Assembly: GCF_022695595.1 (NCBI RefSeq)
Contig: NZ_CP074380.1
Span: 4,624,501 to 4,688,500, forward strand
Direction of reading: 5' to 3'
DNA: 64,000 bases
Source of the DNA: Streptomyces sp. MST-110588
GTDB taxonomy: Bacteria; Actinomycetota; Actinomycetes; Streptomycetales; Streptomycetaceae
The stretch's first letter is position 1. Each line of letters begins with the position of its first letter. Both the position numbers and the translations under genes were made by a program. Below the pieces are notes generated by a model. The model was not told where the DNA came from and did no database searches. It saw only the letters and a list, made by a program, of their open reading frames with translations. Of this stretch, positions 1,380 to 59,491 are shown one piece after another.

Positions 1380-2578
1380 GGCAGCTCCACTTTCAGCTTG
1401 GTCGGCCCACCTGGGGGGCTGGACAGGCCGGCCGTGCCGTCGAGCGCGGCGACGCGCCGGCGGATTCCGACCAGGCCGCTGCCCTCGTGCTCGTCGGCAC
1501 CGCCGCGGCCGTTGTCGGTCACGGTGACCGTCAGCATGCCGTTGCCCCGGGTGAAGCGTACCGATGCCTGAGTGGCGCCCGAGTGCTTGCGGATGTTGGT
1601 CAGGGCCTCGGCGACCACGAAGTACGCCGCCGCCTCCACCGAGGCCGGCAGCCTGAAGGAGTGTTCCACCGAGCCCAGGCTCATCTCGACCGGGATCTCC
1701 GAGGACGCCGCCAGGGCCCGTACGGCGCCGGCCAGTCCCCGGTCGGTGAGCACCGGCGGATGCACCGTACGCACCACGTGCCGCAGGTGGGCGAGCGCGC
1801 CCTCCACGCCCTGCTGCGCCTCGTCCAGCCGCTGCAGCGCGGCGTCCGGGTCGGTGCGCACCTGCTGCTTGGCCAGTCCGATGCGCATGGACAGGGCCAC
1901 CAACTGGGCCTGTACGCCGTCGTGCAGGTCCCGTTCGATACGGCGCAGCTCGGCGCTGTGCGCCTCCACGGCGCCGGCCCGGCTCTCGGACAGCTCGGCG
2001 ATCCGCTCCTCCAGCCAGGCGGAGGGCGTGTGGCGCAGCAGCGCCGCCGAGCACCGGGCCTGGGCGTCGGCCAGCGACCCCAGGCGGCGCAGGACCAGGG
2101 AGTTGGGGGGCTTGGCGGGGGTGCCGTAGCGGTCCTCGCGGCGCCGGGCCAGCGCGCCGCCCACCCCCATGTGCAGCCCGTCCACGGCCACTCCGGCCAC
2201 CCACACGGCGACGGCCAGGACGCAGAAGGCCACGGCGCACACGATCTGTACGGGAAGCCAGCGGGCGTCGCGCCAGGTGCCGGGGTCGGTCAGGGACAGC
2301 CGCAGCCGGTCGGCCGGTGTCCCGTCGAGCGGGAGGTACTGCTCGGGGATGGGCGAGCGCAGCCGCGTCCCCGCCCGCACCCGCTCGTATCCGGCCAGTC
2401 TGCGCTGTAATTTGACCAGATCCGGCCAGGCCGGGGCACCGATGACGATCGCCACGAAGAACAGCGCCAGCGGCACCGCACACGCCATCAGAAAGCTGAA
2501 CCAGGCCACCGCGACACTGACGAGCAGGTACCAGGTGTCACGCCAGGAGCGCTCTATCTGGGCGGAGAAGTCGTGCAT
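1367..2578 (-). CDS. Sensor histidine kinase (NarL partner type)
   Basis: A 403-residue membrane kinase. Hydrophobic segments at about 15-48 and 107-132 anchor it. The dimerisation/phospho-acceptor motif of the HisKA_3 family is ERDLHDGVQAQL with His at about 219. The ATP-binding domain shows the N box (EALTNIRKHSGA) and G boxes (TDNGRGG, GSGLVGIRRR). The protein has only a short extracytoplasmic part, so it may sense within the membrane. It sits first in an operon with its cognate regulator (13-bp overlap) and divergent from the ABC exporter, an arrangement often seen for cell-envelope or antibiotic-export control. The signal is unknown. Confidence 0.92.
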   Translation of the reverse strand: MHDFSAQIERSWRDTWYLLVSVAVAWFSFLMACAVPLALFFVAIVIGAPAWPDLVKLQRRLAGYERVRAGTRLRSPIPEQYLPLDGTPADRLRLSLTDPGTWRDARWLPVQIVCAVAFCVLAVAVWVAGVAVDGLHMGVGGALARRREDRYGTPAKPPNSLVLRRLGSLADAQARCSAALLRHTPSAWLEERIAELSESRAGAVEAHSAELRRIERDLHDGVQAQLVALSMRIGLAKQQVRTDPDAALQRLDEAQQGVEGALAHLRHVVRTVHPPVLTDRGLAGAVRALAASSEIPVEMSLGSVEHSFRLPASVEAAAYFVVAEALTNIRKHSGATQASVRFTRGNGMLTVTVTDNGRGGADEHEGSGLVGIRRRVAALDGTAGLSSPPGGPTKLKVELPCGS

Positions 2579-2682
2579 GGTGGGTCTCCCTGGTGGGCGG
2601 CACGGGCATCCGGTCCCGGCGCACGGACAACGGTCGCGGGAGTGGAGAACCGGCGGATGAAGGGCGCGGAACGCAGAGGATA

Positions 2683-2765
2683 CGGATCACATTAATCCGC
2701 CCCGCGCCCGGCCGTGGTGTCCCGGACACCCCGGTCGTGGTGCCACGGGTACCCAGCCCGTGGTG
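2683..2765. promoter_or_regulatory. Candidate operator region between kinase and ABC exporter
   Basis: This 341-bp divergent intergenic region (2579-2919) holds an inverted repeat CGGAT-N7-ATCCG at 2683-2699. It also holds three copies of CGTGGTG at 2713-2719, 2736-2742 and 2759-2765, spaced exactly 23 bp. Such phased repeats are plausible binding sites for the adjacent response regulator, but no family consensus was matched. Confidence 0.4.
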
Positions 2766-2919
2766 GAGCTGGCTGAACCCCATGACGGGTGTGCGCCCTA
2801 TCGTGTCCGGCCTGCCCGGTCCGTAGCGTTCCCACCAGGTAAGGAACTGTCCGGTGCGACAGGCCGGTCGGCCGCCCCGCAACCGGCGGTTCGGTCGTAC
2901 AGGCCCGGAGGGCGCGCGC

Positions 2920-3738
2920 ATGGTCAGGCTTCGCAACGGGAAACGTGCCACGGCGAAGGCCGGCACGAAAGGGGCTTCGCACGACTACGAGTCCGGCCCC
3001 GTGGCGGCGCTCTCACTGGAGTCCGTCACCCGCCGCTACCAGCGCAACGGCAAGGCGGTCAACGCCCTGGACGACGTCAGCGTCACCGTCGCCCCCGGCC
3101 GGTTCATGGCGGTCATGGGCCGCTCCGGCTCCGGCAAGACCACGTTCCTGCAGTGCTCGGCCGGGCTGGACCAGCCGACCTCGGGGACCGTACGGATCGG
3201 GGAGACCGACCTGTCCAAGCTCAGCGAGACGGCCCTGACCCGGCTGCGCCGCGAGCGCATCGGCTTCATCTTCCAGGCGCTGAACCTGGTGCCCTCGCTG
3301 ACGGTGGCGGAGAACACCGCGCTGCCGCTGCTGCTGGGCGGCGAGGACCCCCAGGACCCGACCGTACGGGAACGGGCCCTGCGCGTGCTGGAGTCGGTGG
3401 GGATGGCCGAGCGGGCGGACGACTCGCCGCTGCGGCTCTCCGGCGGCCAGCAGCAGCGGGTGGCCATCGCCCGCGCCCTGGTCACCAACCCCGCCGTGAT
3501 CTTCGCGGACGAGCCCACCGGCGCCCTGGACCCGGTCACGGCCCGGGACGTGCTGGTGCTGCTGCGGGACGCGGTGGACCGCGAGGGCCACACCGTCGTG
3601 ATGGTCACCCACGACCCGGTGGCCGCCTCCTGGACCGATGAGGCCCTGTTCATCGAGGCCGGCTGCGTCGTCAACCGCCTGACGGGCCCCGACCCCAACT
3701 CTGTCGCGCAGGCCATGGCACAGCTCGGGGAGCGGTGA
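2920..3738 (+). CDS. ABC transporter ATP-binding protein (MacB/LolD type)
   Basis: A 272-residue ATPase energising the permease encoded next. It has Walker A GRSGSGKTT at about 68-76, a Q-loop (IFQALNL), signature LSGGQQQR at about 173-180, Walker B VIFADE at about 193-198 with the D-loop GALD, and an H-loop His (MVTHDP). I chose the ATG at 2920, which follows a CCCGGAGGG ribosome-binding site; an in-frame GTG at 2854 would add 22 poorly conserved residues. The stop overlaps the permease start by 4 bp. The family normally extrudes peptides, lipids or lipoproteins. Being next to a peptide cluster, it is a candidate exporter or immunity pump, but the link is positional only. Confidence 0.92.
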   Translation: MVRLRNGKRATAKAGTKGASHDYESGPVAALSLESVTRRYQRNGKAVNALDDVSVTVAPGRFMAVMGRSGSGKTTFLQCSAGLDQPTSGTVRIGETDLSKLSETALTRLRRERIGFIFQALNLVPSLTVAENTALPLLLGGEDPQDPTVRERALRVLESVGMAERADDSPLRLSGGQQQRVAIARALVTNPAVIFADEPTGALDPVTARDVLVLLRDAVDREGHTVVMVTHDPVAASWTDEALFIEAGCVVNRLTGPDPNSVAQAMAQLGER

Positions 3739-6506
3739 GCGCCGTGCCGCTGCAGACACACCAGCGCACCGACGGGGCCACCGGGCGGCGCCCGGCGGAC
3801 CCGGCCCGTACGCAGGACAGCCCCTCCCGCACCCGGCGCACCTCCCGCTTCCTGGCCACCCGCTCCATGCGGCTGCACCGCAAGGCGTGGGCGGCGGTCT
3901 TCGCGGCCCTGGTGCTCACCTCCCTGATGCTGGCGGGCTTCGGGCTGACCCTGCTGTCGGCCGCCATCGGCCATGCGCACGTGGAGCGGTACGCCGCCAC
4001 CGCCGCGGTGGTCACCGGCGACCAGAGCACCGACTACACGGCCAAGCCCTGGGGCTCGGAGCCCAAGCACACCAGCGCGGCCCTGACCGAGCGGGTACGG
4101 GTGCCGCGTACGGCGCTGAAGCGGATCGAGGCCGTACCGGGCGTCAAGGCGGCGATCGCCGACGACGCCTTCCCCGTCGCGCTCGCCGGGAAGGGCCGGG
4201 GCGCCGTCCTGGGCCCGGACGGCGACTCCGGCCCCTCCCCGGTCTACGGTCACAGCTGGGACGCCGCCGCGCTGGCGCCGTTCACCCTGCGCTCCGGGCG
4301 CGCCCCCGCCGCGCCCGACCAGGTCGTCCTGGACGGCGACCTCGCCGCGCGGGCCGGGGTGCGGGTGGGCGACACCATCCGGGCCCAGGCCCTGGACGCG
4401 CCCGCCACGTACCGTGTCTCGGGCATCGCCGCGCCCCAAGGCAAGGGCGACACCGCGGGCCTGGGCCACCAGGGCGCCGTCTTCTTCAGCGAGCAGCGGG
4501 CCCGGGAACTGGCCGGCCACCCCGGCACCACCGACGCCATCGGCGTCCTGGCCGACCCGGGAGCCGACGCCGCCGAGCTCCACGACGCGCTGCGTACGGC
4601 CCTGGACGGCGAGCACCCGGTCCGCAGCGCCACCGCCGAGCACCGCTTCGACCAGGACAACACCTCGCTGCGCGTCCTGACCGGTCAGGCGCGCGGCGAA
4701 CCGGAGTTCCTGACCGCGGCCCCCAGCCGGTGGAGCCTGATGGCGCTGATGGGACAGGTCTGCGCGATCGTCGTGATGATCGCCGTGCTGGTCGTCTCCA
4801 GCACCGTCGCCCAGGCCATCCACCAGCGCGCCCGGGAGATGGCGCTGCTGCGCGCGGTGGGAGCCACCCCCCGGCAACTGCGCGCCACCGTCAGCCGGGA
4901 GATCAACGTGGTGGCCACCGCCGCCGCCCTGGTCGGCGCGGTCGGCGCGGTGCCCGTGTTCATCCTGCTGATCCACCTGCTGCGCTCGCGCGGCGCCGTA
5001 CCCATCGGCCTGGAACTGCCCATGCCGGTGTGGATCTTCGCGGCCCCGCTGGTCACCGCCGGCCTGACGCTGCTGGTGGCCCGCATATCCGCCGCCCTGT
5101 CCGCCGGCCGGATCGCCAAGGTGCGGCCCGCGCAGGCGATGGGCGAGGCACAGAGCGAGCCGGAGCGGCCCGGCCGCGGACGGTTCGTCACCGGCATGGT
5201 GCTGCTGCTGGCGGGCATCGCCGCGGGCGGTACGGCGGTGCTCCAGTTCGGCGAGATGGCCGCGATGGCGGCCGGCACCGCCGCGATGACCCTGGTGATC
5301 TCCTGTGCGCTGCTCGGGCCCTGGATCGCCCGCGGCTCCATGCGGGTGCTCGGCGGGGCGGCCCGGCGGATCGGCGGGGCCGGCGGCTACCTGGCGGCGG
5401 CGGCCTGCCGGGCCAACTCCCGCCGTCTGGGCGCCGCGATCACCCCGATCATCCTCGTGGTGGCCTTCGTCGGCGTACAGCTCTCGGCCGGCGCGACCAT
5501 GGACCGGCAGGGCGGCAAGCAGGCCGGCTTGTCCATGCGCGCGGAGCTGGCGGCCGTCACCGACGGGCCGGGCATCCCCGACGAGGCGGTGCGCCGCATC
5601 GCGAAGGTGCCCGGAGTGGCCACGGCTTCCGGGGTCCTGCACTCCACCGTCGTACTGGCCCGCAAGGAGGCGGGCGAACCCAAGCTGGACCGGCTGCCGG
5701 TCATGGCACTGGACCACTCGGCGCTGCCCGCCACGATCGACCCGGACGTCATCAAGGGCGACCTGAAGAACCTGGGCAGGGGCACCGTCGCGGTGGGCAA
5801 GGACCGGGCCCGCTCGCTGGATCTGGACATCGGCTCGAAGGTCACCGTCCGCTACGGCGACGGCGCCAACATCACCCTGAAGGTCGCCGCCGTCTACGAC
5901 CGGGCGCTGGCCCTGGGCGACTTCCTCTTCGACCCGCGGGAGCTGGCGCCGCACCTGGCCGCGCCGCTGAACACCCGCGTCCTGATCAGCCTGGCGCCCG
6001 GCGCCGACCCGGCCAGGGTCAAGGACGCGGCGCAGCGGCAACTGGCGGACGCCGCCCTCGGCGCGAAGATCGTGGACCAGCCCAAGGGCGAGCACCTCCA
6101 GACCGAGGACCGCGGGGTGGGCGAGGTGATCACCGTGGTCGCGGTGGGCGTGATCGGCGGGTTCACCGTCATTGCCGTACTGAGCACCCTGACCCTCATC
6201 ATGATCGGACGGCGCCAGGAAGTGACGCTGCTGCGCCTGGTGGGCGCCGGACGGCGGCAACTGCGGTGGATGCTGCGCATCGAGGCGGCCACCGTGATCC
6301 TGGTGGGCCTGGTGGTCGGCACCGCGGTCGCCCTGGTGCCGCTGACGGCGCTGAGCGTCGCCCTGACCGGGTCCGTGCCCTACATCCCGCCCACCGAGGC
6401 AGGAGTCACCGTCCTGGTGGTGGTGCTGACGGCCTGTGCGGGGTACCTGCTGCCCCTGAGGTCGGTGCTGCGCAAGCGGCACCCGGCCGGCACCGGCCGC
6501 GGGTGA
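3735..6506 (+). CDS. FtsX/MacB-like ABC transporter permease
   Basis: A 923-residue membrane protein with the duplicated architecture of large actinobacterial FtsX permeases. It has an N-terminal membrane segment (about 53-77), a large extracytoplasmic domain, and a first cluster of membrane helices (about 335-450) carrying the coupling motif with AREMALLRAVGATPRQLR. More membrane segments follow near 480-570, then a second extracytoplasmic domain, and a final helix cluster with GRRQEVTLLRLVGAGRRQLR (from about 818). It starts with GTG inside the TGA stop of the ATPase gene (GTGA overlap), so subunit synthesis is coupled. It works with the ATPase to move a substrate across or out of the membrane; the substrate is unknown. 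Confidence 0.9.
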   Translation: MSAVPLQTHQRTDGATGRRPADPARTQDSPSRTRRTSRFLATRSMRLHRKAWAAVFAALVLTSLMLAGFGLTLLSAAIGHAHVERYAATAAVVTGDQSTDYTAKPWGSEPKHTSAALTERVRVPRTALKRIEAVPGVKAAIADDAFPVALAGKGRGAVLGPDGDSGPSPVYGHSWDAAALAPFTLRSGRAPAAPDQVVLDGDLAARAGVRVGDTIRAQALDAPATYRVSGIAAPQGKGDTAGLGHQGAVFFSEQRARELAGHPGTTDAIGVLADPGADAAELHDALRTALDGEHPVRSATAEHRFDQDNTSLRVLTGQARGEPEFLTAAPSRWSLMALMGQVCAIVVMIAVLVVSSTVAQAIHQRAREMALLRAVGATPRQLRATVSREINVVATAAALVGAVGAVPVFILLIHLLRSRGAVPIGLELPMPVWIFAAPLVTAGLTLLVARISAALSAGRIAKVRPAQAMGEAQSEPERPGRGRFVTGMVLLLAGIAAGGTAVLQFGEMAAMAAGTAAMTLVISCALLGPWIARGSMRVLGGAARRIGGAGGYLAAAACRANSRRLGAAITPIILVVAFVGVQLSAGATMDRQGGKQAGLSMRAELAAVTDGPGIPDEAVRRIAKVPGVATASGVLHSTVVLARKEAGEPKLDRLPVMALDHSALPATIDPDVIKGDLKNLGRGTVAVGKDRARSLDLDIGSKVTVRYGDGANITLKVAAVYDRALALGDFLFDPRELAPHLAAPLNTRVLISLAPGADPARVKDAAQRQLADAALGAKIVDQPKGEHLQTEDRGVGEVITVVAVGVIGGFTVIAVLSTLTLIMIGRRQEVTLLRLVGAGRRQLRWMLRIEAATVILVGLVVGTAVALVPLTALSVALTGSVPYIPPTEAGVTVLVVVLTACAGYLLPLRSVLRKRHPAGTGRG

Positions 6507-7240: not shown

Positions 7241-8641
7241 GTGTCGTTCGCTGTGCTCGGGATGTCTGCGGAAGCGAAGGGTCGCGGTACCACCATCAGC
7301 CTGCCCCTCGACCGCCTCGCCAAAGAGCACTCCGTCGTCGGCGGCCAACTGGCCGTCCACCACCAAGGAACCACTCACACCTGGGCCTTCGGCGAGGAGG
7401 AGCACGACAGCGGCCGGCCGGTCAGCGTCGGCACCGCCTTCGCCCTCGGCTCGACCACCAAAGCACTGACCGCGACCTCCGTCCTCCAGCTCGTCTCCGA
7501 CGGCGACCTGGACCTGGACAGCCCCGTGAAGACCTGGATCGAGGAGCGCGGCGCGGCGGCGGACCACCCCGCCCTGAACGCCACGCTGCGCCAACTCCTC
7601 AGCCACACCGCCGGGTTGCCCTCCGACCATTTCGACGAGGAAGCGCCCTCGCTGCGCCGCTGGCTGGCCGGGTTCCTCACCTCCGGTGACGAGCGCGCCC
7701 GCGCGTCCTGGCCCACGCCCGGCTCCTTCTCGTACTCCAACATCGGCTACGCCGTCGCCGGCCGCGCCGTGGAGGCCGCCACCGGACTGCCCTGGTGGCA
7801 GGCGGTCCGCGACTACCTGCTGACGCCGCTGGGCACCGGCATCGGCCTGCTGCCCGGCGCCCCCCAGGACGGCCGGCCGCTGACCGCGGCCCCCGGGCAC
7901 ACCGCCCACACCACCCCCGACGGCCGGACGGTGGTGCACGTCGTCCAGAGCACCACCGACGCGGGCTCGGCGCCCTCCGGCGGCCTCGCGGGCAGCGCCG
8001 CCGACCTCGTACGTTTCGCCCGGCTGCACCTGGAGGAGCCCGGCGACCTGGACCGCTCCGCCGTCGCCGACCCGTCCGTATTGCGCGAGATGGCCCAGCC
8101 CGTCACCGGCGCCGAACCCTTCGGGCTGGCCGACGGCTGGGGCCTGGGCCTGGGCCACTTCGGCCCCGCCGGCCGCCACTGGCTGGGCCACGACGGCACC
8201 CTGGACGGCAGCACCTGTCACCTGCGCATCGAGCCGCGGCAGGGCACCGTCGTCGCCCTGACCACCAACACCTCCTCGGGGCTGGCCCTTTGGGACTCCG
8301 TCGTCGAGGAGCTGCGCGAGTGCGGCCTGGACATCGGCCTGCACGCACCGCAGCCGCCGCTGGCCGCGCCCGCCGCGACCTTCGCGGAGTGTACGGGCAC
8401 CTACCGCAACGGGGACCTGGCCGTGACGGTCGGCATCGAGGACCAGCACATCGTCCTGGGACTGCCCAACGGCCAGCGGGACTCCGTCGCCCCGCACACC
8501 GGCCTGTTCTTCTCCGGCCGGCCCGGCAACGCCAGCCTCTTCCTCGGCCGGTTCGTCAAGGACGTGGCCACCGGTGAGATCCGTGCCCTGCAGTACTCCG
8601 GACGCACGCTGACACGCGAGGCGCTCACGGCCAGGAACTGA
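7241..8641 (+). CDS. PBP-type peptide cyclase / thioesterase (SurE/DsaJ type)
   Basis: A 466-residue serine hydrolase of the beta-lactamase/penicillin-binding-protein fold. The active-site motifs are S71-T-T-K74 (GSTTKALTA), Y165-S-N167 ([10 protein letters not shown]) and H317-D-G319 ([10 protein letters not shown]). A C-terminal lipocalin-like domain (about 375-466) is typical of stand-alone cyclases such as SurE. No NRPS here ends in a thioesterase, so this enzyme is the expected release factor: it takes the linear hexapeptide from the last carrier protein and closes the ring, favouring a C-terminal D-residue or Gly. It has no signal peptide, which argues against a cell-wall PBP. The start is GTG 7241 after AGGGAAG; ATG 7262 is an alternative. 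Confidence 0.85.
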
Positions 8642-8888
8642 CCCGCCACGGCGGACGCCGGGCCCACGGCCACCCGACAGGGCGGCCCACGCGGCCCGGC
8701 GGACCGCCGCGCGAAACCCCCACCCCACCACCGGCCGGCGCGCACCAGCCGCGCCCGGCCGCTCACCCGCGGAAGCGGCGGGCCGGTCAGCCCTGCCCGC
8801 GGCAGGCATCCCACGGCGGCAATCCCACAGCGGCCGGCCACGACGGCACTCCCACATTCCCTCTCGGCGCTCTATGGGGTCACTCGAC

Positions 8889-23164
<14,276 letters not shown>

Positions 23165-23342
23165 TCCGCGCGCACCACCGCCCGGCCCGCTCCGGCGGGC
23201 CGGGCCGCCCCGCCGGACCGCACCGCGGCACCCGGCCGGGCCGCACCACAGAGGCAGACCGCCCCACCGGACCGGGCCGCCCCACAGGCCCGGCCCGTAG
23301 CACCCGTACCACCTCGTTCCACCGGTAGAAGGAGAGACACGC

Positions 23343-31268
<7,926 letters not shown>

Positions 31269-31316
31269 CGACCACACCCCTCACTCAACTGAATGCGAAG
31301 TGAACTTCGGTTGAGG

Positions 31317-31376
31317 AGAAAAACAAAAAACAAGAACCAGAACCAAGAACCAGGCATCAGGAAAGAGGACAGAAAA
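31317..31376 (+). promoter_or_regulatory. A-rich leader before the first MbtH gene
   Basis: About 60 bases are composed mostly of A and AAC/AAG triplets, very unlike the surrounding 70% GC DNA. Just upstream, CTCAACTGAA (from about 31283) can pair with TTCGGTTGAG (about one loop later) with one G-U pair. The layout (hairpin, then an unstructured purine-rich leader with an AAAGAGG site) suggests an intercistronic element that moderates read-through and boosts MbtH translation. Confidence 0.4.
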
Positions 31377-31586
31377 ATGTCGAACCCGTTCGAGAACGAT
31401 GAGGCCACCTACCTCGTACTCGTCAACAAGGAGGGCCAGCACTCCCTGTGGCCGTCCTTCGCCGAGGTCCCCGAGGGCTGGGACGTCGCCTTCGGCCCCA
31501 AGCTCCGCCAGGAGTGCCTGGAGTACGTCAACACCAACTGGACCGACATGCGCCCCAAGAGCCTGATCGAGGCCATGGGCGCCTGA
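31377..31586 (+). CDS. MbtH-like protein 1 (canonical)
   Basis: A 69-residue MbtH protein, the small chaperone that binds and activates adenylation domains. The family signature is complete: [12 protein letters not shown], then PEGWDVAFG, then [17 protein letters not shown], with all three conserved Trp. It follows NRPS2 by 108 bp and is preceded by AAAGAGG, so it is probably co-transcribed. It can be expected to serve the Asn and basic-residue A domains and possibly those of NRPS1. Confidence 0.96.
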
Positions 31587-31670
31587 CCGACCCCACCCGA
31601 TCCCCGGGGACGCGGCGGCCACCACTCGTACACACGCAGGTCTACACACGCACGTGATGGAGGACTGGAC

Positions 31671-32051
31671 ATGACGGACAGCGGCGCGGCGGCCCCCGGG
31701 GCCGGAGTGAGCCGGGTACAGGAGTACTACCGGCTGGTGGACGCCGACGACGTCCCCGGGCTCATCGCCCTGTTCACCGAGGACGCCGTCTACCGGCGTC
31801 CCGGCTACGAACCGATGCGCGGACACGACGGCCTGCGGGCCTTCTACTCCGGCGAGCGCGTCATCAAGAGCGGACGGCACACCGTCACCACGGTCGTCGC
31901 CGACGGCGACCGCATCGCGGTCAACGGCACCTTCGAAGGCGTCCTGAAGGACGGCCGGGAAGTCTCCCTGGAGTTCGCCGACTTCTTCGTGCTCGACGGC
32001 GAGCACCGCTTCACCCGGCGGGACACCTACTTCTTCGCCCCGCTGGTCTGA
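31671..32051 (+). CDS. SnoaL-like (NTF2-fold) protein, probable allo-isoleucine isomerase
   Basis: A 126-residue NTF2/SnoaL-fold protein (VQEYYRLVDADDVPGLIALF at the start, an RRPGYEPMRG loop, a C-terminal beta-sheet ending TYFFAPLV). In the desotamide and marformycin clusters a small protein of this class (DsaE/MfnH) works with a PLP aminotransferase (DsaD/MfnO) to invert C-beta of the Ile-derived intermediate, giving L-allo-isoleucine. A branched-chain aminotransferase gene is present at 40654, completing the pair, so I assign that role by context. A GGAGG site precedes the ATG. The gene sits alone between the NRPS2-mbtH and NRPS3-mbtH pairs. Generic ketosteroid-isomerase-like function cannot be excluded from sequence alone. 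Confidence 0.75.
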   Translation: MTDSGAAAPGAGVSRVQEYYRLVDADDVPGLIALFTEDAVYRRPGYEPMRGHDGLRAFYSGERVIKSGRHTVTTVVADGDRIAVNGTFEGVLKDGREVSLEFADFFVLDGEHRFTRRDTYFFAPLV

Positions 32052-32122
32052 CCGGGCCGGCCCGCCCCGGCGCGAGCAGCGTGGCCCGCGCATCACCCCG
32101 CAGTACCCGTTAAGGAGACACC

Positions 32123-40027
<7,905 letters not shown>

Positions 40028-40083
40028 TACACCCACGGCGTCCGAACGCCATCCGCATTTCTACGGGGGAAAGGGAAACAGAA

Positions 40084-40335
40084 ATGCCGAAACCGTTCCG
40101 CAGCGATGAGACCTTCTATCCGGATGAGACCTTCCATCTGGATGAGACCTTCTATCTGGTGGTCAGCAGCAAGGAAGGACGGCATTCCGTCTGGCCGTCC
40201 TTCGCCCAGATCCCGCCCGGCTGGCGGGTCGTCTTCGGCCCGCAGCGCCGCGCGGAGTGCCTGGACTTCGTGAACGCCGTACGGACCGGCCGGCGCCCCG
40301 GGAGCCTGGCCCAGGCCCAGGCCCGGAGCCGCTGA
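40084..40335 (+). CDS. MbtH-like protein 2 (expanded and degenerate)
   Basis: An 83-residue MbtH homologue following NRPS3 by 56 bp, mirroring the NRPS2-mbtH arrangement. It keeps HSVWPSF, PPGW and CLDFVN. It has two peculiarities. An 18-base unit encoding DETF(Y/H)x is repeated three times (40105-40158), adding 12 residues before the first strand. The third signature Trp is replaced: the NWTDMRP of copy 1 reads AVRTGRRP here. It may be a decaying duplicate, with MbtH 1 doing the work. Confidence 0.9.
   Translation: MPKPFRSDETFYPDETFHLDETFYLVVSSKEGRHSVWPSFAQIPPGWRVVFGPQRRAECLDFVNAVRTGRRPGSLAQAQARSR
40105..40158. repeat. Three in-frame 18-bp tandem repeats in mbtH 2
   Basis: Units 40105-40122, 40123-40140 and 40141-40158 are near-identical copies of GATGAGACCTTCTATCTG. 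Removing two units would restore the usual MbtH length, which indicates replication-slippage expansion. Confidence 0.9.
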
Positions 40336-40653
40336 TCGCCGGACCGGCCTGACACACCCCGGGCCGCCGGCCGTCCGGGGACGACGGGCGCTGCGCGCCG
40401 GGTCGTGGAACCCCGGCGCGCCGGCCGTCCGGCGCCCCGGCACGCCCGCTCAGCCCCCGCACATTGGCTTCCCCCACTTCCTCCCACCTCCCCCACGCCC
40501 GCTCCCGCGCGTACCCCCCCCACCGCACCACTTCCTGCTCAACGGCGAGCAGCGCACCCACCCGGCGGCCCGACCGTGCCCGCGTCCCCACACGTGCGCC
40601 CCGCACCCGCCGGCCCGACCGATCGCCCCGCACAACCGCCACAGGAGGCCGGA

Positions 40654-41823
40654 GTGCACATCGTGTCCAAACCCGTAGCCCATCCGCTGACGCCGCAGCA
40701 GCGCGCGGAACGTACCGCCTCGCCCACGTTCGGCACCGCCTTCACCGAGCACATGGTCTCGGTGAAGTGGACCGCCGAGCAGGGCTGGCACGAGGCCGAA
40801 CTCCAGCCGTACGGGCCGCTGCTGCTGGACCCCGCCACGGTCGGCCTGCACTACGGCCAGGTCGTCTTCGAGGGCCTGAAGGCGTTCCGCTCGCACACCG
40901 GTGACGTCGCCGTCTTCCGGCCCGACGCGCACGCCCGCCGCATGCGCGCCTCCGCGCACCGGCTGATGATGCCCGAGCTGCCCGAGGAACTGTTCCTGGC
41001 CGCCGTGGACGCCCTGGTCGCCCAGGACCAGGACTGGATTCCCGACGACCCGAACACGAGCCTGTACCTGCGGCCGGTCACCTTCGCCTCCGAACGCACC
41101 CTGGCGCTGCGGCCCGCCCGCGAGTACCGCTTCCTGCTGCTCGCCTTCGTCACCGAGGGCTACTTCGGCCGCTCGCAGCGCCCCGTACGGGTCTGGGTCA
41201 CCGAGGAGTACACCCGCGCGGCAGCGGGCGGCACCGGCGCCGCCAAGTGCGCCGGTAACTACGCGGGCAGCCTGCGGGCCCAGGAGGAGGCCCAGGACAA
41301 GGGCTGCGACCAGGTCGTCTGGCTCGACCCGACGGAGCGCCGGTGGGTGGAGGAGATGGGCGGCATGAACCTCTTCTTCGTGTACGGGGCGGGCGCCGAG
41401 GCCCGCCTGGTCACCCCGCCGCTGTCCGGCAGCCTGCTGCCCGGTGTCACCCGCGACGCGCTGCTGCGGCTGGCACCCGCGCTGGGCATCCCGGCCACCG
41501 AGGCGCCGGTGAGCCTGGAGGACTGGCGCGCCGGGTGCGCGTCCGGTGAGATCACCGAGGTGTTCGCCTGCGGTACGGCCGCGCGCATCAGCCCCGTCAA
41601 CGAGGTGTGCACGAGCGGCGATTCGTGGACGGTGGGCACTGCGGGCGAGCGCCCCGTCGGCGAGGTCACCGCCAGGCTCTCCGACGCCCTGTTCGGCATC
41701 CAGCGCGGCGAACTGCCCGACCGCTTCTCCTGGATGCGGCCGGTGGCGCCCGCCCCCCGTCCGGCGGCCCCCGCCTCCGGTCAGGCCCCCGCCTCCCTCA
41801 CCGATCAGGCGGCGCGGTCATGA
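40654..41823 (+). CDS. Branched-chain amino acid aminotransferase (IlvE/DsaD-like)
   Basis: A 389-residue fold-type IV PLP enzyme. The PLP lysine lies in the GAAKCAGNYAGS motif, the substrate-side motif is LHYGQVVFEGLKAFR, and the class signature is EVFACGTAARISPV. It transaminates Val, Leu and Ile with their 2-oxo acids. In this cluster it can supply Leu/Val and, with the SnoaL-like protein, convert L-Ile through its oxo/enamine form to L-allo-Ile. I place the start at GTG 40654, 5 bases after AGGAGG (40643-40648); an in-frame GTG at 40663 is too far from that site. Its TGA overlaps the next ATG by 4 bp. The preceding 318 bp (40336-40653) are GC- and pyrimidine-rich with no promoter I can identify. 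Confidence 0.9.
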   Translation: MHIVSKPVAHPLTPQQRAERTASPTFGTAFTEHMVSVKWTAEQGWHEAELQPYGPLLLDPATVGLHYGQVVFEGLKAFRSHTGDVAVFRPDAHARRMRASAHRLMMPELPEELFLAAVDALVAQDQDWIPDDPNTSLYLRPVTFASERTLALRPAREYRFLLLAFVTEGYFGRSQRPVRVWVTEEYTRAAAGGTGAAKCAGNYAGSLRAQEEAQDKGCDQVVWLDPTERRWVEEMGGMNLFFVYGAGAEARLVTPPLSGSLLPGVTRDALLRLAPALGIPATEAPVSLEDWRAGCASGEITEVFACGTAARISPVNEVCTSGDSWTVGTAGERPVGEVTARLSDALFGIQRGELPDRFSWMRPVAPAPRPAAPASGQAPASLTDQAARS

Positions 41824-42675: not shown

Positions 42676-43530
42676 ATGAGTGCTGTCCCCCGCCCCCACA
42701 GCGACGGCGCGAGCGGCCCGCGCACCCAGCGGCCCCGCCGCTACCTGATGTGCCGCCCCACCCACTTCGAGGTCACCTACTCGATCAACCCGTGGATGGA
42801 CCCGGCCAAGCCGGTCGACACCGAACTGGCCGTCGCCCAGTGGGAACGGCTGCGCGCCCTCTACCTCGAACTCGGCCACAAGGTGGAGCTGATCGACCCG
42901 CTCCCGGGCCTGCCCGACATGGTCTACGCGGCCAACGGCGCCACCGTCGTGGACGGCAAGGTGCTCGGCGCCCGCTTCCGCAACGCCGAGCGCACCGCCG
43001 AGGGCCCCGCCTACCTCGACTGGTTCCGCACCCACGGCTTCACCGAACTGCACGACCCGCAGCACATCAACGAGGGCGAGGGCGACTTCCTGGTCACCGG
43101 GAGCTGGGTGCTGGCCGGCCGCGGCTTCCGCTCCGCGCCCGAAGGCCACGCCGAGGCCCAGGAGTTCTTCGGCCGCCCGGTCATCGGCCTGGAACTGACC
43201 GACCCGCGCTACTACCACCTGGACACCGCGCTGGCCGTCCTGGACGAGGACGAGGTCATGTACAACCCGGAGGCGTTCACGCCGGGCAGCCTGGCCGTAC
43301 TTCAGCGCCTCTTCCCCGGCGCGGTGCTCGCCACGCCCGAGGACGCCGCGGTCTTCGGCCTCAACGCGGTCAGCGACGGCCGTCACGTCGTACTGCCCGA
43401 GGCCGCCACCGGACTGGCCGGGCAACTGCGCGAGCGCGGCTTCGAGCCCATCGGCATGGACCTGTCCGAGCTGCTCAAGGGCGGCGGCAGCGTCAAGTGC
43501 TGCACCCTGGAGCTGCGCGAGCGCGCCTGA
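42676..43530 (+). CDS. Dimethylargininase / amidinotransferase-family enzyme
   Basis: A 284-residue member of the guanidine-modifying superfamily (beta/alpha propeller). It has an N-terminal YLMCRPTHFEVTYSINPWM, the NEGEGDFL acidic motif that binds the guanidinium, the His of YYHLDTAL, and a C-terminal nucleophile in GGGSVKCCT (Cys 275/276). Family members hydrolyse methylated arginine or arginine to citrulline, or move the amidino group and leave ornithine. As NRPS2 probably loads a basic residue and this gene shares an upstream element with the cyclase gene, a role in making or trimming the Arg/Orn residue is plausible. Housekeeping arginine catabolism is the alternative. A GGAGAG site precedes the ATG; trpC follows after 112 bp. 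Confidence 0.82.
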   Translation: MSAVPRPHSDGASGPRTQRPRRYLMCRPTHFEVTYSINPWMDPAKPVDTELAVAQWERLRALYLELGHKVELIDPLPGLPDMVYAANGATVVDGKVLGARFRNAERTAEGPAYLDWFRTHGFTELHDPQHINEGEGDFLVTGSWVLAGRGFRSAPEGHAEAQEFFGRPVIGLELTDPRYYHLDTALAVLDEDEVMYNPEAFTPGSLAVLQRLFPGAVLATPEDAAVFGLNAVSDGRHVVLPEAATGLAGQLRERGFEPIGMDLSELLKGGGSVKCCTLELRERA

Positions 43531-43642
43531 CGGCCGCCCGCCCCCGGTGAGCGCCGCACCGTCCTTCCCTTCCACGGCGCGGCGCTCCCGGTCCGCCCGC
43601 CACCGCGTCACCGTTTCCGTTCCCTGAGAGGACCGACACCCC

Positions 43643-44434
43643 ATGACCGTGCTCGACGAGATCATCGACGGAGTACGCGAGGACCTTGCCGAGCGTCGAC
43701 GGCGGGTGCCCGAACGCGAACTGCGCGACCGCGTGGCGCACACCGCCCCCGCGCTGGACGCCGTGGCAGCGCTGCGCAAGCCCACCGGAATCCAGGTCAT
43801 CGCCGAGGTGAAGCGGGCCAGCCCCTCCAAGGGCGCACTGGCCGACATCGCCGACCCGGCGGCGCTGGCCGCCACGTACGAGAAGTCGGGTGCCGCCGCG
43901 GTCAGCGTCCTGACCGAACAGCGGCGCTTCCGCGGCTCGCTGGCCGACCTGGACGCCGTACGCGCCCGGGTCAACATCCCCGTCCTGCGCAAGGACTTCA
44001 TCGTCACCCCCTACCAGCTCTGGGAGGCCCGCGCGCACGGCGCCGACCTGGCGCTGCTGATCGTGGCCGCGCTCGAACAGGACCTGTTCCGGGACCTGCT
44101 GGCGCTGGCGACCGAACTGGGCCTGACCGTGCTGGTGGAGGTGCACGACGAGGCCGAGACCGACCGCGCGCTGGACGCCGGCGCCACGATGATCGGCGTC
44201 AACAACCGCAATCTGAAGACCCTCGACGTCGACCGGGACACCTTCGCCCGGCTCGCGCCCCGGATTCCCCCGAGCGTGGTACGGGTCGCCGAGTCCGGGT
44301 TCCGCGGCCCCCAGGACGTGGCCGCGGTGGCCGCGCACGGCGCGGACGCGGTGCTCGTGGGCGAGGCGCTGGTCACCGGCGAGAGCGGGCCGGGCCCGGC
44401 GCTGACGGCCCTGCTGGCGGCCGGCGCCCGCTGA
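43643..44434 (+). CDS. trpC: Indole-3-glycerol phosphate synthase
   Basis: A 263-residue (beta/alpha)8 barrel enzyme converting carboxyphenylaminodeoxyribulose phosphate to indole-3-glycerol phosphate, the fourth tryptophan step. Diagnostic segments are [13 protein letters not shown], the catalytic [25 protein letters not shown] and [15 protein letters not shown] precedes the ATG. It is a cluster-linked copy, separate from the usual housekeeping trp genes, and follows the amidino-enzyme gene, probably in one transcript. Together with trpD/E/G and DAHP synthase it raises the supply of Trp for the peptide. Confidence 0.95.
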
Positions 44435-44480
44435 CCCGGGCCGCTGAACGGTTCCGGCCGTGCGGCCCCGCCACCAAGCC

Positions 44481-44511
44481 CCGGCCCGTACGCGCGCACC
44501 GTACGGGCCGG
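44481..44511. terminator. Hairpin between convergent trpC and trpD
   Basis: Arms 44481-44492 and 44500-44511 (12 bp, perfect) enclose a 7-base loop. It is 47 bp past the trpC stop in the 307-bp convergent gap 44435-44741, which holds no other feature I can support. Confidence 0.7.
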
Positions 44512-44741
44512 TCACACACTCCGCAGGACATCCGGTACGGGTCCCTACGGCCGGAACTCCTCCCGCACGCGGACGTCATACGGGCAGCGGGAGAGCGCAC
44601 CCCACAGGAGCCGGCCGGCGACCGAAGACACCGGGAACGCGAACGAAGACAGCACAACGCGAGGGCGCCGGGCGACCGATCCGGAATCCTCCCCAGGTCC
44701 CGGTCGGCCCGCCCGGCGCCGGCCTCACAGCAGGAGCCGGG

Positions 44742-45800
44742 TCACCGGCCCGCCGCCAGCTTCGTGGAGACGGCCGCCCACCGCCGGAGGACCTCGGCCG
44801 CCGCCCCCGTGTCGATCGCCCGGCCGCCCCGTTCCATCCCCGCCGCGATCCGTTCGGCCACCGGACGGTCCGAGGGTTCCAGGGCCGCCAGTCCGGCGGC
44901 CGTCGAGAGCAGTACGGCGTCGCGCACCGGCCCGCACTCGCCCGCCAGCAGGGCGCGTGCCACGCCCGCGTTGTGGGCGGCGTCGCCACCGCGCAGCGCC
45001 TCCGGCGGCGCCAGGGCGACCCCGATCTCCCGCGGGTCGAAGGTCTCCCGGCGCACCCGACCACCGGATACCGACCAGACAGTGGAGGTAGTGGTGACCG
45101 TCAGCTCGTCCATCCCGTCGTCCCCGCGGAAGACCAGCGCGCTCACGCCCCGGCGGGCCAGCACCCCGGCCAGCTTCGGCGCCAGCACCGCGTCCGCGAC
45201 GCCGACCGCCATGGCCGCCGGCCGCGCCGGGTTGGTCATCGGGCCCAGCGCGTTGAAGACCGTACGGATGCCCAGCTCGCGGCGGGCGGCGGCGGCATGA
45301 CGCATCGAGGGGTGGAAGAGCGGCGCGAAGCAGAAGGTGATGCCGACCTCGCCCGCCAGCCCGCCGACCTCGGCGGCCGGCAGGTCCAGCGCCACGCCCA
45401 GGTGCTCCAGGACGTCGGCCGAACCGGAGGCCGAGGACGCCGAGCGGTTGCCGTGCTTGACGACCCGGGCGCCCGCACCGGCCGCCACGATCGCCGACAT
45501 GGTCGAGACGTTGACGCTGTTGGAGCCGTCGCCGCCGGTGCCGACGATGTCCAGGACGGGCCCCGGCACCTCCAGGGCGACGGCGTGCTCGTACATGGCC
45601 CGTACGAGCCCCTCGATCTCCTCGACCGTCTCGCCCTTGGTGCGCAGCGCCACCAGCAGCCCCGCGATCTGCGCGTCGGTCACATGCCCGCGCATCACCT
45701 GGTCCATCGCCCACGCCGTGTCCTCGGCGCGCAGATCGTCCCCCGCCAGCAGTGCCGAGAGCAGCACGGGCCAGGACCGCTGCCGATCCGTACCGGTCAC
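44742..45800 (-). CDS. trpD: Anthranilate phosphoribosyltransferase
   Basis: A 352-residue enzyme transferring phosphoribosyl from PRPP to anthranilate (second committed Trp step). It shows the PRPP motif [15 protein letters not shown], the anthranilate-site KHGNRSAS segment and the NPARP(A) loop after FNALGPMT. I start it at GTG 45800, which follows AAAGGGGA; a TTG ten codons upstream is less likely. It is transcribed away from the MocR regulator gene; the 107-bp divergent gap carries a putative MocR box. Confidence 0.93.
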
Positions 45801-45855
45801 CAGGAATCCCCTTTCGTCAGCACGGGGCAAGTCTGCGATCCGCCGTCAACCGGTC

Positions 45856-45868
45856 ACCAGACCACTCG
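45856..45868. promoter_or_regulatory. Putative MocR box between trpD and the regulator gene
   Basis: ACCAGACCACTCG in the divergent trpD/MocR promoter region. GACCACTCG recurs exactly at 49755-49763, and ACCAGACCAATCC is found at 49727-49739 in the other trp promoter region. A reverse-oriented half site (CGGTCCAC) lies at about 45882. The match between the two divergent regions controlled by one nearby regulator suggests an operator. Confidence 0.5.
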
Positions 45869-45907
45869 CCCGCAGCGAATCCGGTCCACTTCCCGGGAGG
45901 AGAAGAA

Positions 45908-47329
45908 ATGGCCTGGCACGCCCTGATAGACGTGTCCCGGGAGTCCGGGGAGCCGCTCACCGCGCAGATCCAGGGAACGATAAAAGCCGAGATCTCCACA
46001 GGAGTTCTGCGCCCGGGCACCCGGCTGCCCTCCAGCCGCCAGCTCGCCGAAGACCTCGGTGTCTCGCGCAGCGTGGTGGTGGAGGCGTACGGACAGCTCA
46101 TCGCCGAGGGCTACCTCGAAGCCGTCCAGGGCTCCGGCACCCGCGTCGCCGCGCACGTCACCCCCGCCCCGGCCGTCCCCACCCTCCTGGACAACGGGGT
46201 TGCGCCACAGGTCCGCTGGGACCTGCGCACCGGTACGGCCCAGGGCGCCGACTTCCCGCACCGCGAATGGCTCGCCGCCTACCAACGCGCCCTGCAGAGC
46301 GCCGACCCCTACGACCTGGACTACCCGCCGCTGTCCGGCTCCGGCGAGCTGCGCGAGGAACTGGCCCAGTACCTCGGCCGGGCCCGCGGGGTGCGCACCA
46401 CACCCGGACAGGTCATGGCGGTCTCCGGCTTCGCGCAGGCACTGGCCCTGCTGTGCACCGTCCTGCCGGGCCTGGGCATCGACCACATCGCCATGGAGGA
46501 CCCCTGCCACCACCGGCAGCGGCAGTTCATCCAGGAGGTGGGGCTGCGTCCACGGCCGGTCCCCGTGGACGAGGAGGGCATCGACGTGGCCGCGCTGGCC
46601 CGTACCGGCGCGCGGGCCGTCCTGGTCACCCCCGCCCACCAGTTCCCCACCGGCGCGACGCTCTCCGGGCCGCGCCGGGAGGCCCTTGTACGGTGGGCCC
46701 GCGAGCACGACGCCTGGATCATCGAGGACGACTACGACGGCGACCTGTGGCTCGAACGCGGCGCCCGCCCCGCGGCGCTCCAGCGGCTGGCACCCGAACG
46801 CGTCGTGTACGGCGGCACGGTGAGCAAGTCCCTGGCCCCCGGGCTGCGCTTCGGCTGGCTCGCGGTACCGCCCCAGTTGATCGGGCCGCTGGAGCGGGTG
46901 CGCTCCCAGCGCGACCTGGGCTCGGACATCTTCACCCAGCTCGCCTTCGCCGAACTGCTGCGCTCGGGCCACTTCGACCGCCACCTGCGCCGTCAGCGCG
47001 CCCGTTACCGGGTCCGCCGGGCCGCCCTGGACCAGGCGGTACGCCGCTATCTGCCCGGCGCACGGATCACCGGGGCGGCGGCGGGGCTGCACGCGTACGT
47101 ACGGCTGCCCCACCGCGTCGACGAGAACGCGCTGGTCACGCGGGCGCTGGGCCGGTCGGTGCTGGTACGGGGCGGGCGCCCGCACCACGCCCACCCCGAA
47201 CGGGCCGCGCCCGCGCTGGTGGTGGGCTACACGGCGGTGCCCCGTACCGGCATCGCGGAAGCGGTGCGGGCGCTGGGCGGCGCCTATGAGCGGCAGCCGG
47301 CGGCGGCGGGCCCGATGCGCTGTGCGTGA
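45908..47329 (+). CDS. MocR/GabR-type regulator (GntR HTH fused to aminotransferase fold)
   Basis: A 473-residue protein. An N-terminal winged helix (about 10-75: LTAQIQGTIKAEISTGVL, LPSSRQLAEDLGVSRSVVVE) joins a fold-type I aminotransferase-like domain (about 100-460) with the PLP lysine in GGTVSKSLAPGLRFGW. Such proteins bind PLP, and often an amino compound, as effector and regulate adjacent genes, usually including their own. It is placed between trpD and trpGE with likely boxes in both flanking promoter regions, so I infer control of tryptophan supply. The ATG is preceded by GGGAGGAGAAG. The stop codon lies inside an 18-bp direct repeat. Confidence 0.93.
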   Translation: MAWHALIDVSRESGEPLTAQIQGTIKAEISTGVLRPGTRLPSSRQLAEDLGVSRSVVVEAYGQLIAEGYLEAVQGSGTRVAAHVTPAPAVPTLLDNGVAPQVRWDLRTGTAQGADFPHREWLAAYQRALQSADPYDLDYPPLSGSGELREELAQYLGRARGVRTTPGQVMAVSGFAQALALLCTVLPGLGIDHIAMEDPCHHRQRQFIQEVGLRPRPVPVDEEGIDVAALARTGARAVLVTPAHQFPTGATLSGPRREALVRWAREHDAWIIEDDYDGDLWLERGARPAALQRLAPERVVYGGTVSKSLAPGLRFGWLAVPPQLIGPLERVRSQRDLGSDIFTQLAFAELLRSGHFDRHLRRQRARYRVRRAALDQAVRRYLPGARITGAAAGLHAYVRLPHRVDENALVTRALGRSVLVRGGRPHHAHPERAAPALVVGYTAVPRTGIAEAVRALGGAYERQPAAAGPMRCA

Positions 47330-47358
47330 CCCCCGCGCCGTGCGTGACCCCCGCGCCG
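47323..47358. repeat. Two 18-bp direct repeats at the MocR stop
   Basis: TGCGTGACCCCCGCGCCG occurs at 47323-47340 and 47341-47358, with a partial third copy after it. The regulator's TGA lies in the first copy. The 79-bp gap to trpG also has GCGTAC-C-GTACGC at 47393-47405. Confidence 0.8.
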
Positions 47359-47408
47359 TGCGTGTCCGCCCCGTCGTGCCCGGCCGCCCGCCGCGTACCG
47401 TACGCCGC

Positions 47409-49627: not shown

Positions 49628-49672
49628 CTGGATTCCTTCTCTGTTCCGCCCCCGCGCGCATTCCGGCCGTGA

Positions 49673-51334
<1,662 letters not shown>

Positions 51335-57006: not shown

Positions 57007-57225
57007 CCTGCCGCTGACACCACCGACGTACCACTGACGGCCCCGGCCGGGGCATCTGCCACCGTCGTCCGACGCCACCGGCCCGTACTTCTGCTCACCC
57101 GTACCACCGGCCCCACCCGTCTCACCCAGCCCATAGCCCTCAGCTCACGCCGTAGCCCTCAGCTCAGCTCTATCCCTTGCTCGCCCCTCGGCTTTCGCCC
57201 TTCGCACCAGTAGGTGGACCCACCC

Positions 57226-59355: not shown

Positions 59356-59491
59356 AGCATCCACTGTCTCACCGGTCGCCCATTCCTTGATCCTCGGGCC
59401 GAATGCCCCTGGTCCCCGACTCCCGTGTTCCCGACTCCCGTGCCCCCGGCCCCCGAGTCCCTCAACAACTCACCGTGGAACGTCGGAAGAC

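Follow-up and report, generated by a model that had tools for sequence, protein, structure and literature searches.

The forked wol assembly line of Streptomyces sp. MST-110588 (CP074380) has been proven genetically and biochemically (Booth et al. 2022, PMC9205934). As reported there, desotamides come from WolG1 and wollamides from WolG2, and a desotamide-only strain gained wollamide when wolG2 was expressed in it. In assays of the isolated A6 domains, that of WolG1 used Gly and that of WolG2 used L-Orn and, more weakly, Asp/Asn (PMC9205934). The authors took the fork as evidence on the evolution of NRPS assembly lines and as a guide to engineering cut sites, and they named the Orn A6 of WolG2 as the "major parent" of the Gly A6 (PMC9205934). 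The BE-18257/pentaminomycin cluster likewise encodes a pair of related cyclic peptides (PMC7827011, PMC9205934), but it is described with two parallel tandem synthetases, where wol forks after a common upstream enzyme. The ulleungmycin, noursamycin, and curacomycin clusters (ulm/nsm/cur) resemble wol in their homologous tetramodular and terminal synthetases, identical pockets, and similar docking segment.

The forked locus and its published counterpart

The window, the whole stretch of 64,000 nucleotides that we analyzed, lies in an MST-110588 genome of one contig (7,915,503 bp); the published producer is described as a "single 7.9 Mb chromosomal assembly" (PMC9205934). We identify the forked peptide pathway in the window as the wol cluster, with both branches and the domain roles as published, at a probability of about 95%. 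Its main features are as follows.

7241..8641 (+): stand-alone serine-hydrolase (PBP/SurE-type) peptide cyclase, WolJ-like (PF00144, E 3.8e-48)
8874..12605 (+): tetramodular synthetase (NRPS1), first frame, A1-T1-C2 and the start of A2 (Pfam)
12290..12299 (+): one-base frame break within A domain 2, next to a short G-run (comparison with relatives)
12296..23164 (+): tetramodular synthetase, second frame, remainder of A2-T2-E2-C3-A3-T3-E3-C4-A4-T4, with the C-terminal docking region
23343..31268 (+): WolG2 (NRPS2), 2641 aa, C5-A5(Asn)-T5-C6-A6(Orn)-T6-E, wollamide branch, docking Ala16
32123..40027 (+): WolG1 (NRPS3), 2634 aa, C5-A5(Asn)-T5-C6-A6(Gly)-T6-E, desotamide branch, docking Glu16

Each terminal synthetase contains three condensation-type, two AMP-binding, and two carrier matches, in keeping with the C-A-T-C-A-T-E layout that the original prediction had given to both. 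The third condensation-type domain carries HHLVTDA and EGHGR motifs, which we take to mark it as E. The docking segments, described in that prediction as nearly identical, are the same at 26 of 29 positions, and both A5 domains indeed share the Asn pocket DLTKVGEVG. The A6 pockets differ as it had read them: NRPS2 has the tri-acidic DTEDMGFVD, with three acidic residues in addition to the first Asp, and NRPS3 has the Gly pocket DILQLGLIW. A gap in a second alignment shifted the third position in the DTEDMGFVD rows, where L/W was read; ungapped counting gives E.

The published landmarks WolG2 Ala16 and WolG1 Glu16 are found in the window, as is a WolH numbering that gives Arg3504 (PMC9205934). 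Glu aligns with Glu16 in 16 of the 17 G proteins compared among the matches listed, with Ala in WolG2 only, and the partner Arg is present in all six upstream C termini compared. These 17 G-type proteins are those of 2550–2750 aa among the matches listed (120 of 3208); proteins truncated at the end of a contig may lie beyond these length limits. WolG1 and WolG2 are 81.2% identical in DNA (2622 aligned codons), close to the published 80.9% (PMC9205934). The fork, the duplicated terminal synthetase and MbtH genes, the A6 Orn/Gly pockets, the protein sizes, and the docking residues thus agree with the wol cluster as far as it is described in PMC9205934. The comparison with the published cluster that the original prediction proposed therefore came out in its favor, its wollamide-like and desotamide-like hexapeptides are the published products, and its remark that the arrangement was "probably known" was right. 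The bifurcation is already in print (PMC9205934); the evolutionary revision proposed below is new but not decisive.

In this pathway, the four-module synthetase builds a common tetrapeptide on its last carrier domain, and its one C-terminal docking region passes this tetrapeptide to either bimodular terminal synthetase. WolG2 appends Asn and then D-Orn to give wollamides, WolG1 appends Asn and then Gly to give desotamides, and the stand-alone cyclase would release and cyclize both hexapeptides. NRPS2 and NRPS3 are adjacent and codirectional, an arrangement that would also suit their acting in series to make an octapeptide. We reject this candidate as extremely improbable: both proteins begin with the docking segment type of the 15 other G proteins compared among the matches listed, both end in an E-type domain, and the products published in PMC9205934 are hexapeptides, with wolG2 transfer alone adding wollamide.

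At E<=1e-90, the genome holds only this one upstream cyclase gene, as expected from the single PBP-type cyclase of the original prediction. Its translation contains STTK, presumably the SxxK motif. No thioesterase family was detected at E<=1e-5 in WolG1 or WolG2, and the locus thus combines a stand-alone serine hydrolase with a last synthetase lacking a C-terminal thioesterase, a trait of the desotamide family. One cyclase is presumably common to both hexapeptides. Of two draws from the genus, the first gave cyclase matches in 2 of 392 genomes and the second in 2 of 393. Both draws found the same two genomes, including that of the window, and the second therefore brought nothing new. A related-locus search with the cyclase gave two loci.

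A frame break in the tetramodular synthetase

The original prediction treated NRPS1 as one synthetase of four modules. The four modules stand, with four A and four T domains upstream of the fork, but NRPS1 is not one reading frame, being broken in A2. In five relatives, NRPS1 is one continuous frame of 4693-4793 aa, and the frame at 8874-12605 covers their residues 1 to 1124-1163. Its match to them ends at about 12290-12299, and the remainder is open in another frame, which contains four condensation-type, three AMP-binding, and three carrier matches to Pfam (12296..23164). Similarly, matches flanking the break site lie in one frame in two further loci. With A2 interrupted as sequenced, the deposited DNA, taken literally, gives no intact NRPS1; both product series are nevertheless made by the strain (PMC9205934).

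We infer that the break is an assembly error. Published WolI presumably lies in the frame at 8874..12605, and the R3504 numbering of WolH fits a start at GTG 12578, a position within A2, so that the WolI/WolH boundary given in PMC9205934 looks like a product of the break. The same naming can be read as two real proteins that cooperate in the cell, WolI with A1-T1-C2 and a piece of A2, and WolH with everything after it, and the dsa cluster in that paper does have three NRPS genes, dsaI, dsaH, and dsaG. This reading is improbable. As described in PMC9205934, dsaI and dsaH encode two modules each and do not divide at this position, whereas the cut here sits within the N-terminal part of an A domain, at a site that the five relatives and two further loci read through in one frame. 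Further, the break adjoins a G-run, and the assembly was built with HGAP from PacBio RSII reads (PMC9205934). The main text of PMC9205934 contains no mention of a frameshift, and a comparison of window positions 11000–13500 with the plasmid collection returned 40 records with partial matches, none covering 80%. The frame break concerns anyone cloning or modeling WolI/WolH from the deposited sequence.

Order and descent of the terminal A domains

Three parts of the terminal synthetases bear on their history.

24885..26399 (+): WolG2 A5, Asn type, in one group with the A6 domains of the ulleungmycin type
28113..29645 (+): WolG2 A6, Orn type (DTEDMGFVD), in one group with the A5 domains of the ulleungmycin type
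37352..37825 (+): WolG1 A6 Gly core, A3 to A5 motifs, descent different from that of its flanks

All eight ulm/nsm/cur-type proteins compared among the matches listed have the order Orn5-Asn6, the reverse of Asn5-Orn6 in WolG2; according to a review, Orn is the fifth residue of ulleungmycin-type peptides. Of the 17 G-type proteins from the matches listed, WolG2 is the only one with the Asn5–Orn6 order. The dsa type (S. scopuliridis and relatives) is like WolG1, with Asn at A5 and Gly at A6 in seven of seven DsaG-type proteins among the matches listed, one of which is named DsaG. A tree in which A domains follow their position is rejected (p-AU 6.8e-43), and a single clade of WolG A5 and DsaG A5 is not (p-AU 0.174), a result that bears on whether the Asn A5 moved once or twice. 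Together, these comparisons suggest that whole A domains were exchanged between modules 5 and 6 while the C and T domains stayed in place.

For the flanks of the Gly A6, the trees disagree with the published parentage. Constraining them to group with WolG2 A6 was rejected in 12 of 12 tests. Because some clades for the AU tests were named after the first trees, values near 0.01 are to be read with caution, a concern that weighs less on values of 1e-4 or lower. For eight Gly domains, p-AU was 9.7e-6, 0.0018, and 0.00018 within the family and 0.0159, 0.0030, and 0.0009 with outgroups; for WolG1 A6 alone, it was 3.4e-10, 0.00034, and 0.0002 and, with outgroups, 0.029, 0.017, and 0.0027. The best outgroup trees place the Asn type as sister to the Gly A6 flanks (support 98, 80, and 99), and a Gly-plus-Orn clade is not rejected with outgroups (p-AU 0.26, 0.29, and 0.089). 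The eight Gly flanks form no single clade in the free family trees; the tests do not reject trees that unite them (p-AU 0.205 to 0.711). As for the core, the orf6595-like domain, likely the in-genome Gly donor of the published account, shares 44.6% identity with the Gly core, which puts it 153rd among the 1205 A domains compared; four MbtH-fused synthetases from elsewhere, three of them from Streptomyces, reach 64-67%.

Comparison with relatives thus suggests that the published evolutionary history may need revising. In that history, an Asn5-Orn6 synthetase was duplicated, the Gly core of orf6595 took the place of one Orn A6 core, and desotamide-only clusters lost the Orn copy. Several results are compatible with it. 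In the tree of the docking segment and C5, WolG1 groups with DsaG proteins (100/98) and WolG1 plus WolG2 is rejected (p-AU 0.0044), which is what a duplication before the split predicts. The outer N-terminal part of WolG1 A6 is closer to WolG2 A6 than to A5 in nucleotides (69.2 versus 63.8%), with protein identity equal, and the linker preceding WolG1 A6 and the T domain behind it are also nearer to module 6 of WolG2. Unrooted family trees have the WolG1 A6 flanks adjoining the whole Orn clade (88/83, 88/74, and 92/70, none starred), a clade of WolG1 A6 with the Orn type is not rejected with outgroups (p-AU 0.24, 0.28, and 0.097), and neither is one of the Gly cores with the orf6595-like core (p-AU 0.0745 and 0.246). 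We nonetheless regard this history as unlikely, given the rejection of WolG2 A6 as partner of the flanks in all six tests with eight Gly domains and all six with WolG1 A6 alone, and the distance of the orf6595-like core.

From these comparisons we infer how WolG1 and WolG2 evolved, and our tentative preference, held at somewhat under even odds, is that desotamide synthesis did not arise from wollamide synthesis by a single core swap. Modules 5 and 6 would have traded whole A domains, cut at the C-A and A-T linkers. The A6 that received the Gly core would have been other than the Orn type of WolG2, best placed beside the Asn type when outgroups are included, and the core lineage would lie nearer to the MbtH-fused synthetases of other strains than to orf6595. 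The tandem copies would then have undergone gene conversion; WolG1 and WolG2 form a mosaic that probably arose in this way. With continued conversion between the tandem copies, the fork would have been the place where A domains were reshuffled. If this exchange-and-conversion account is true, both the wollamide-first direction and the named Gly donor need revision. If whole A domains moved with C and T left in place, there is a second, larger natural cut site beside the published cut within the A domain.

Neighboring and supply genes

Four small or accessory genes accompany the terminal synthetases.

31293..31586 (+): MbtH-like protein 1 (PF03621, E 4.6e-28)
31671..32051 (+): SnoaL-like small protein between WolG2 and WolG1 (PF12680, E 7.4e-20)
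40087..40335 (+): MbtH-like protein 2 (PF03621, E 3.6e-19)
40405..41823 (+): branched-chain aminotransferase, class IV (PF01063; NF009897/TIGR01123 above cut-off)

The two MbtH-like genes required of a wol-type cluster are present. Against the cluster as described in PMC9205934, we found no differences in the synthetases; the six published ornithine genes, wolRSTUVW, were not found among the ORFs scanned, a part of those in the window, 20 kb to its left, and 11.6 kb to its right. The only candidate for ornithine supply among these ORFs is a dimethylargininase-family gene at 42676-43530.

The aminotransferase presumably supplies L-allo-Ile. Its NF009897 match begins at residue 93, and its true start is probably downstream of 40405. 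The dsa-type locus of Streptomyces sp. L-9-10 likewise has a terminal synthetase followed by the same aminotransferase, but with one terminal synthetase in the 20 kb examined versus the window's two. The original prediction had passed over the NRPS1 frame break, the swapped A-domain order in ulleungmycin-type relatives, and the WolG1/WolG2 mosaic. Position 41823, where it ended the assembly line, is the end of the aminotransferase gene and not of an NRPS.

Correspondence with the published wol cluster

The bifurcated system of Streptomyces sp. MST-110588 is already published (Booth et al. 2022, PMC9205934), and the window (bases 4,624,501–4,688,500 in a genome assembled as a single contig of 7,915,503 bp) matches that cluster closely; new here are a correction to the upstream four-module synthetase, NRPS1, and a revised evolutionary history that can be tested. 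In the portions of PMC9205934 available, the tetrapeptide is the product of WolI/WolH (NRPS1), desotamides arise via WolG1 (Gly) and wollamides via WolG2 (Orn), a desotamide-only strain gains wollamide on receiving wolG2, and isolated A6 domains (numbered by module) activate Gly and L-Orn. The original prediction guessed that this fork was probably known, and both products are indeed assigned there; apart from an intact NRPS1, what it observed and how it read the system hold up. NRPS1 is open in two frames, 8874–12605 and then, in another frame, 12296–23164. The terminal synthetases and MbtH-like proteins are as follows.

23343–31268, terminal synthetase NRPS2 (WolG2), co-directional with NRPS3 (Pfam)
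31293–31586, MbtH-like protein
32123–40027, terminal synthetase NRPS3 (WolG1), co-directional with NRPS2 (Pfam)
40087–40335, MbtH-like protein

Each terminal synthetase contains three condensation-type, two AMP-binding, and two carrier domains by Pfam, bearing out the predicted C-A-T-C-A-T-E architecture. In a 58-A-domain alignment, with pocket columns anchored on the Asn and Gly codes of the original prediction, the A5 pocket reads DLTKVGEVG in both proteins and the A6 pockets differ as predicted, with tri-acidic DTEDMGFVD in NRPS2 and the Gly code DILQLGLIW in NRPS3. A second alignment has a gap that gives L or W as the third letter in the DTEDMGFVD rows; counted without gaps from the Asp, that letter is E. 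Upstream, the codes read DVAMAGMVT, DALFMGAVA, DALFMGAVV, and DALWMGGVF. An upstream serine hydrolase of the beta-lactamase/PBP kind, the predicted cyclase, has a single match in the genome at E<=1e-90. A SnoaL-like small protein (31671–32051) lies between the two terminal synthetases, directly ahead of wolG1.

Relatives of WolG2 were taken as the best 120 of 3208 at E<=1e-200, and 17 of these are 2550–2750 aa long: two from the window, seven DsaG-type, and eight ulleungmycin-type, a label based on pocket order and the available part of a review (PMC7459860), none of the eight having a product name. The docking segments, expected to be nearly identical, agree at 26 of the first 29 residues in NRPS2 and NRPS3. 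The E16A change reported in PMC9205934, as far as available, fits exactly, with Glu16 in NRPS3 and Ala16 in NRPS2. If WolH starts at GTG 12578, its published residue Arg3504 coincides with an Arg of the second NRPS1 frame, in the C-terminal region; among alternative starts in the first 114 residues, one further start gives Arg at 3504, but within an A domain. The Glu corresponding to Glu16 is present in 16 of the 17 terminal synthetases, WolG2 being the sole exception, and the partner Arg in 6/6 upstream C termini. These residues support the reading, in the same portions of PMC9205934, that WolG2 docking is the degraded one. The two genes share 81.2% DNA identity here (2622 codons), compared with 80.9% in that account.

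Frame break in NRPS1

Four upstream A-domain codes are read, in keeping with the four modules predicted for NRPS1, but the synthetase is not unbroken. The match of relatives to the first frame ends near residue 1146, and their match to the second begins at residue 1; because their alignments switch frame there, the change is placed at about 12290–12299, adjoining a short G-run within A domain 2. Five relatives of the second frame (from 120 listed of 1756 found) cover it fully at 60% identity or more, and each of the five has one uninterrupted frame, 4693–4793 aa long, and at two further loci (L018 and L038) matches on either side of the break site lie in one frame. The assembly was built from PacBio RSII reads, according to PMC9205934, and both peptide series are produced by the strain, so the break probably reflects an assembly error. 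If so, the published WolI/WolH boundary would be an artefact. The dsa cluster is described in PMC9205934 with a pair of bimodular upstream genes, a split that cuts at a different place from the NRPS1 break.

Ancestry of the terminal synthetases

The ulleungmycin-type proteins (n=8) carry DTEDMGFVD at A5 and DLTKVGEVG at A6. According to PMC7459860, the products of ulm and nsm/cur have Orn at position five; one of the eight proteins is from S. noursei, named there as noursamycin producer, and an upstream relative (P0126) is from KCB13F003, the ulleungmycin producer in that review. In trees of the N-terminal part, core, and C-terminal part, WolG2 A6 groups with ulleungmycin-type A5 (support 98, 100, 94) and WolG A5 with ulleungmycin-type A6 (98, 99, 93). 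Over whole A domains, WolG2 A5 shares 46.8% identity with ulleungmycin-type A5 and 74.7% with ulleungmycin-type A6; for WolG2 A6 the corresponding values are 75.3% and 49.0%. A positional A5-with-A5 tree is rejected (p-AU 6.8e-43); C5/C6 and T5/T6 group by position with support 100. The switch points, near WolG2 residues 450–523 and 1018, fall at the linkers between C and A and between A and T. By these trees and identities, the A-domain types of WolG2 recur in the ulleungmycin-type proteins with their positions exchanged, the C and T domains being kept in place. No description of this exchange was found in titles and abstract starts, a literature excluding most subscription journals and the PMC9205934 supplements.

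In the published scenario, as available in PMC9205934, the major parent of WolG1 A6 is WolG2 A6. Grouping the A6 flanks (the outer N and C parts) of WolG1 and seven DsaG proteins with WolG2 A6 is rejected within the family (p-AU 9.7e-6 for the C part, 0.0018 for the N part, 0.00018 for both) and with 25 outgroup A domains added (0.0159, 0.0030, 0.0009), as is grouping WolG1 A6 alone with WolG2 A6 (3.4e-10, 0.00034, 0.0002; with outgroups 0.029, 0.017, 0.0027). There is contrary signal, however: in unrooted family trees the WolG1 A6 flanks adjoin the Orn clade as a whole (88/83, 88/74, 92/70, none starred), and WolG1 A6 with all Orn types is not rejected with outgroups (p-AU 0.24, 0.28, 0.097). 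The best trees with outgroups join the eight Gly flanks to the Asn type (support 98, 80, 99), but the tests do not reject a clade that unites these flanks with all of the Orn type (p-AU 0.26, 0.29, 0.089). Because the WolG2 A6 grouping is rejected and the whole-Orn clade is not, these tree tests reject descent from WolG2's own Orn A6 lineage, while the flanks may still be related to the Orn type at a deeper level. DNA comparisons within the window are mixed, which may explain the choice of WolG2 by a one-genome comparison: the WolG1 A6 N part is 69.2% identical to G2 A6 versus 63.8% to A5, the C part 76.5% versus 77.8–78.6%, and the linker before A and T after it 80.0 and 85.0% identical to G2 module 6 versus 59.9–64.4% to A5 modules.

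The Gly core (A3 to A5 motifs) of WolG1 A6 was published as donated by orf6595. A genome-wide search listed 42 A-domain matches; among the 21 own-genome A domains read (8 in the window), only one other is Gly coded. This domain (DILQLGVIW) belongs to a C-A-T protein located at 7.45 Mb, whose architecture, code, and distance agree with orf6595. The core of the domain is 44.6% identical to that of WolG1, ranking 153rd of 1205 A domains pooled from three sequence searches, one with the WolG1 core as query, a set that is not a census. DsaG cores reach 73–75%; nearest after these are the first A domains of four proteins (P0278, P0290, P0302, P0323; 64–67%), two-A-domain synthetases with an MbtH domain at the front (P0290 is MbtH-A-T-C-A-T), three of them from named Streptomyces. 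The orf6595 claim is weakened rather than refuted, since the tests do not reject a clade joining the orf6595-like core to the Gly cores (p-AU 0.0745, 0.246) and support for grouping with the four MbtH-fused proteins is weak (84/93, 78/92).

Across the rest of the protein, WolG1 groups with DsaG in the docking segment and C5 (100/98; WolG1+WolG2 rejected, p 0.0044), and with WolG2 in C6 (100/98; WolG1+DsaG rejected, p 0.0084) and T6+E (98/97; rejected, p 0.0117). A5 also joins WolG2 (100/100), yet WolG1+DsaG is not rejected (p 0.164). The two genes share 16 identical-codon runs of at least 20 codons, the longest of 98, and 40-codon stretches fall to 62–67% nucleotide identity in C5 and the linker. 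The simplest reading is that the two genes go back to an old duplication and that gene conversion has since acted between them repeatedly; the portions of PMC9205934 consulted discuss gene conversion in general terms only.

Neighbouring genes and a further locus

The block at 42676–51334 looks like a tryptophan supply set adjoining a Trp-peptide cluster.

711–2483, - strand, response regulator domains
1367–2578, - strand, sensor kinase
2854–3738, ABC ATPase
3735–6506, FtsX-type permease
42676–43530, dimethylargininase-family protein (NF045659, 450.8 bits, above cut-off 300)
43643–44434, indole-3-glycerol-phosphate synthase
44742–45830, - strand, trpD-type transferase
45752–47329, PdxR-like MocR regulator
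47409–47984, - strand, glutamine amidotransferase
47981–49627, - strand, chorismate-binding enzyme
49772–51334, class II DAHP synthase
57214–58743, DHA2-type MFS efflux gene, ordinary
58858–59364, - strand, MarR-type regulator, ordinary

Six ornithine genes, wolRSTUVW, are named in the available portions of PMC9205934; none was found among the ORFs scanned, where the dimethylargininase-family gene is the only arginine/ornithine-related one. The genes at 711–6506, adjoining the cyclase, possibly serve self-protection or export with their own two-component system. Streptomyces sp. L-9-10 (L051, 5911–13876) has a desotamide-type terminal synthetase, 87–95% identical to DsaG pieces, that is split into several frames in a draft assembly and followed by the same aminotransferase that lies downstream of wolG1 in the window; one copy is present in the 20 kb read.
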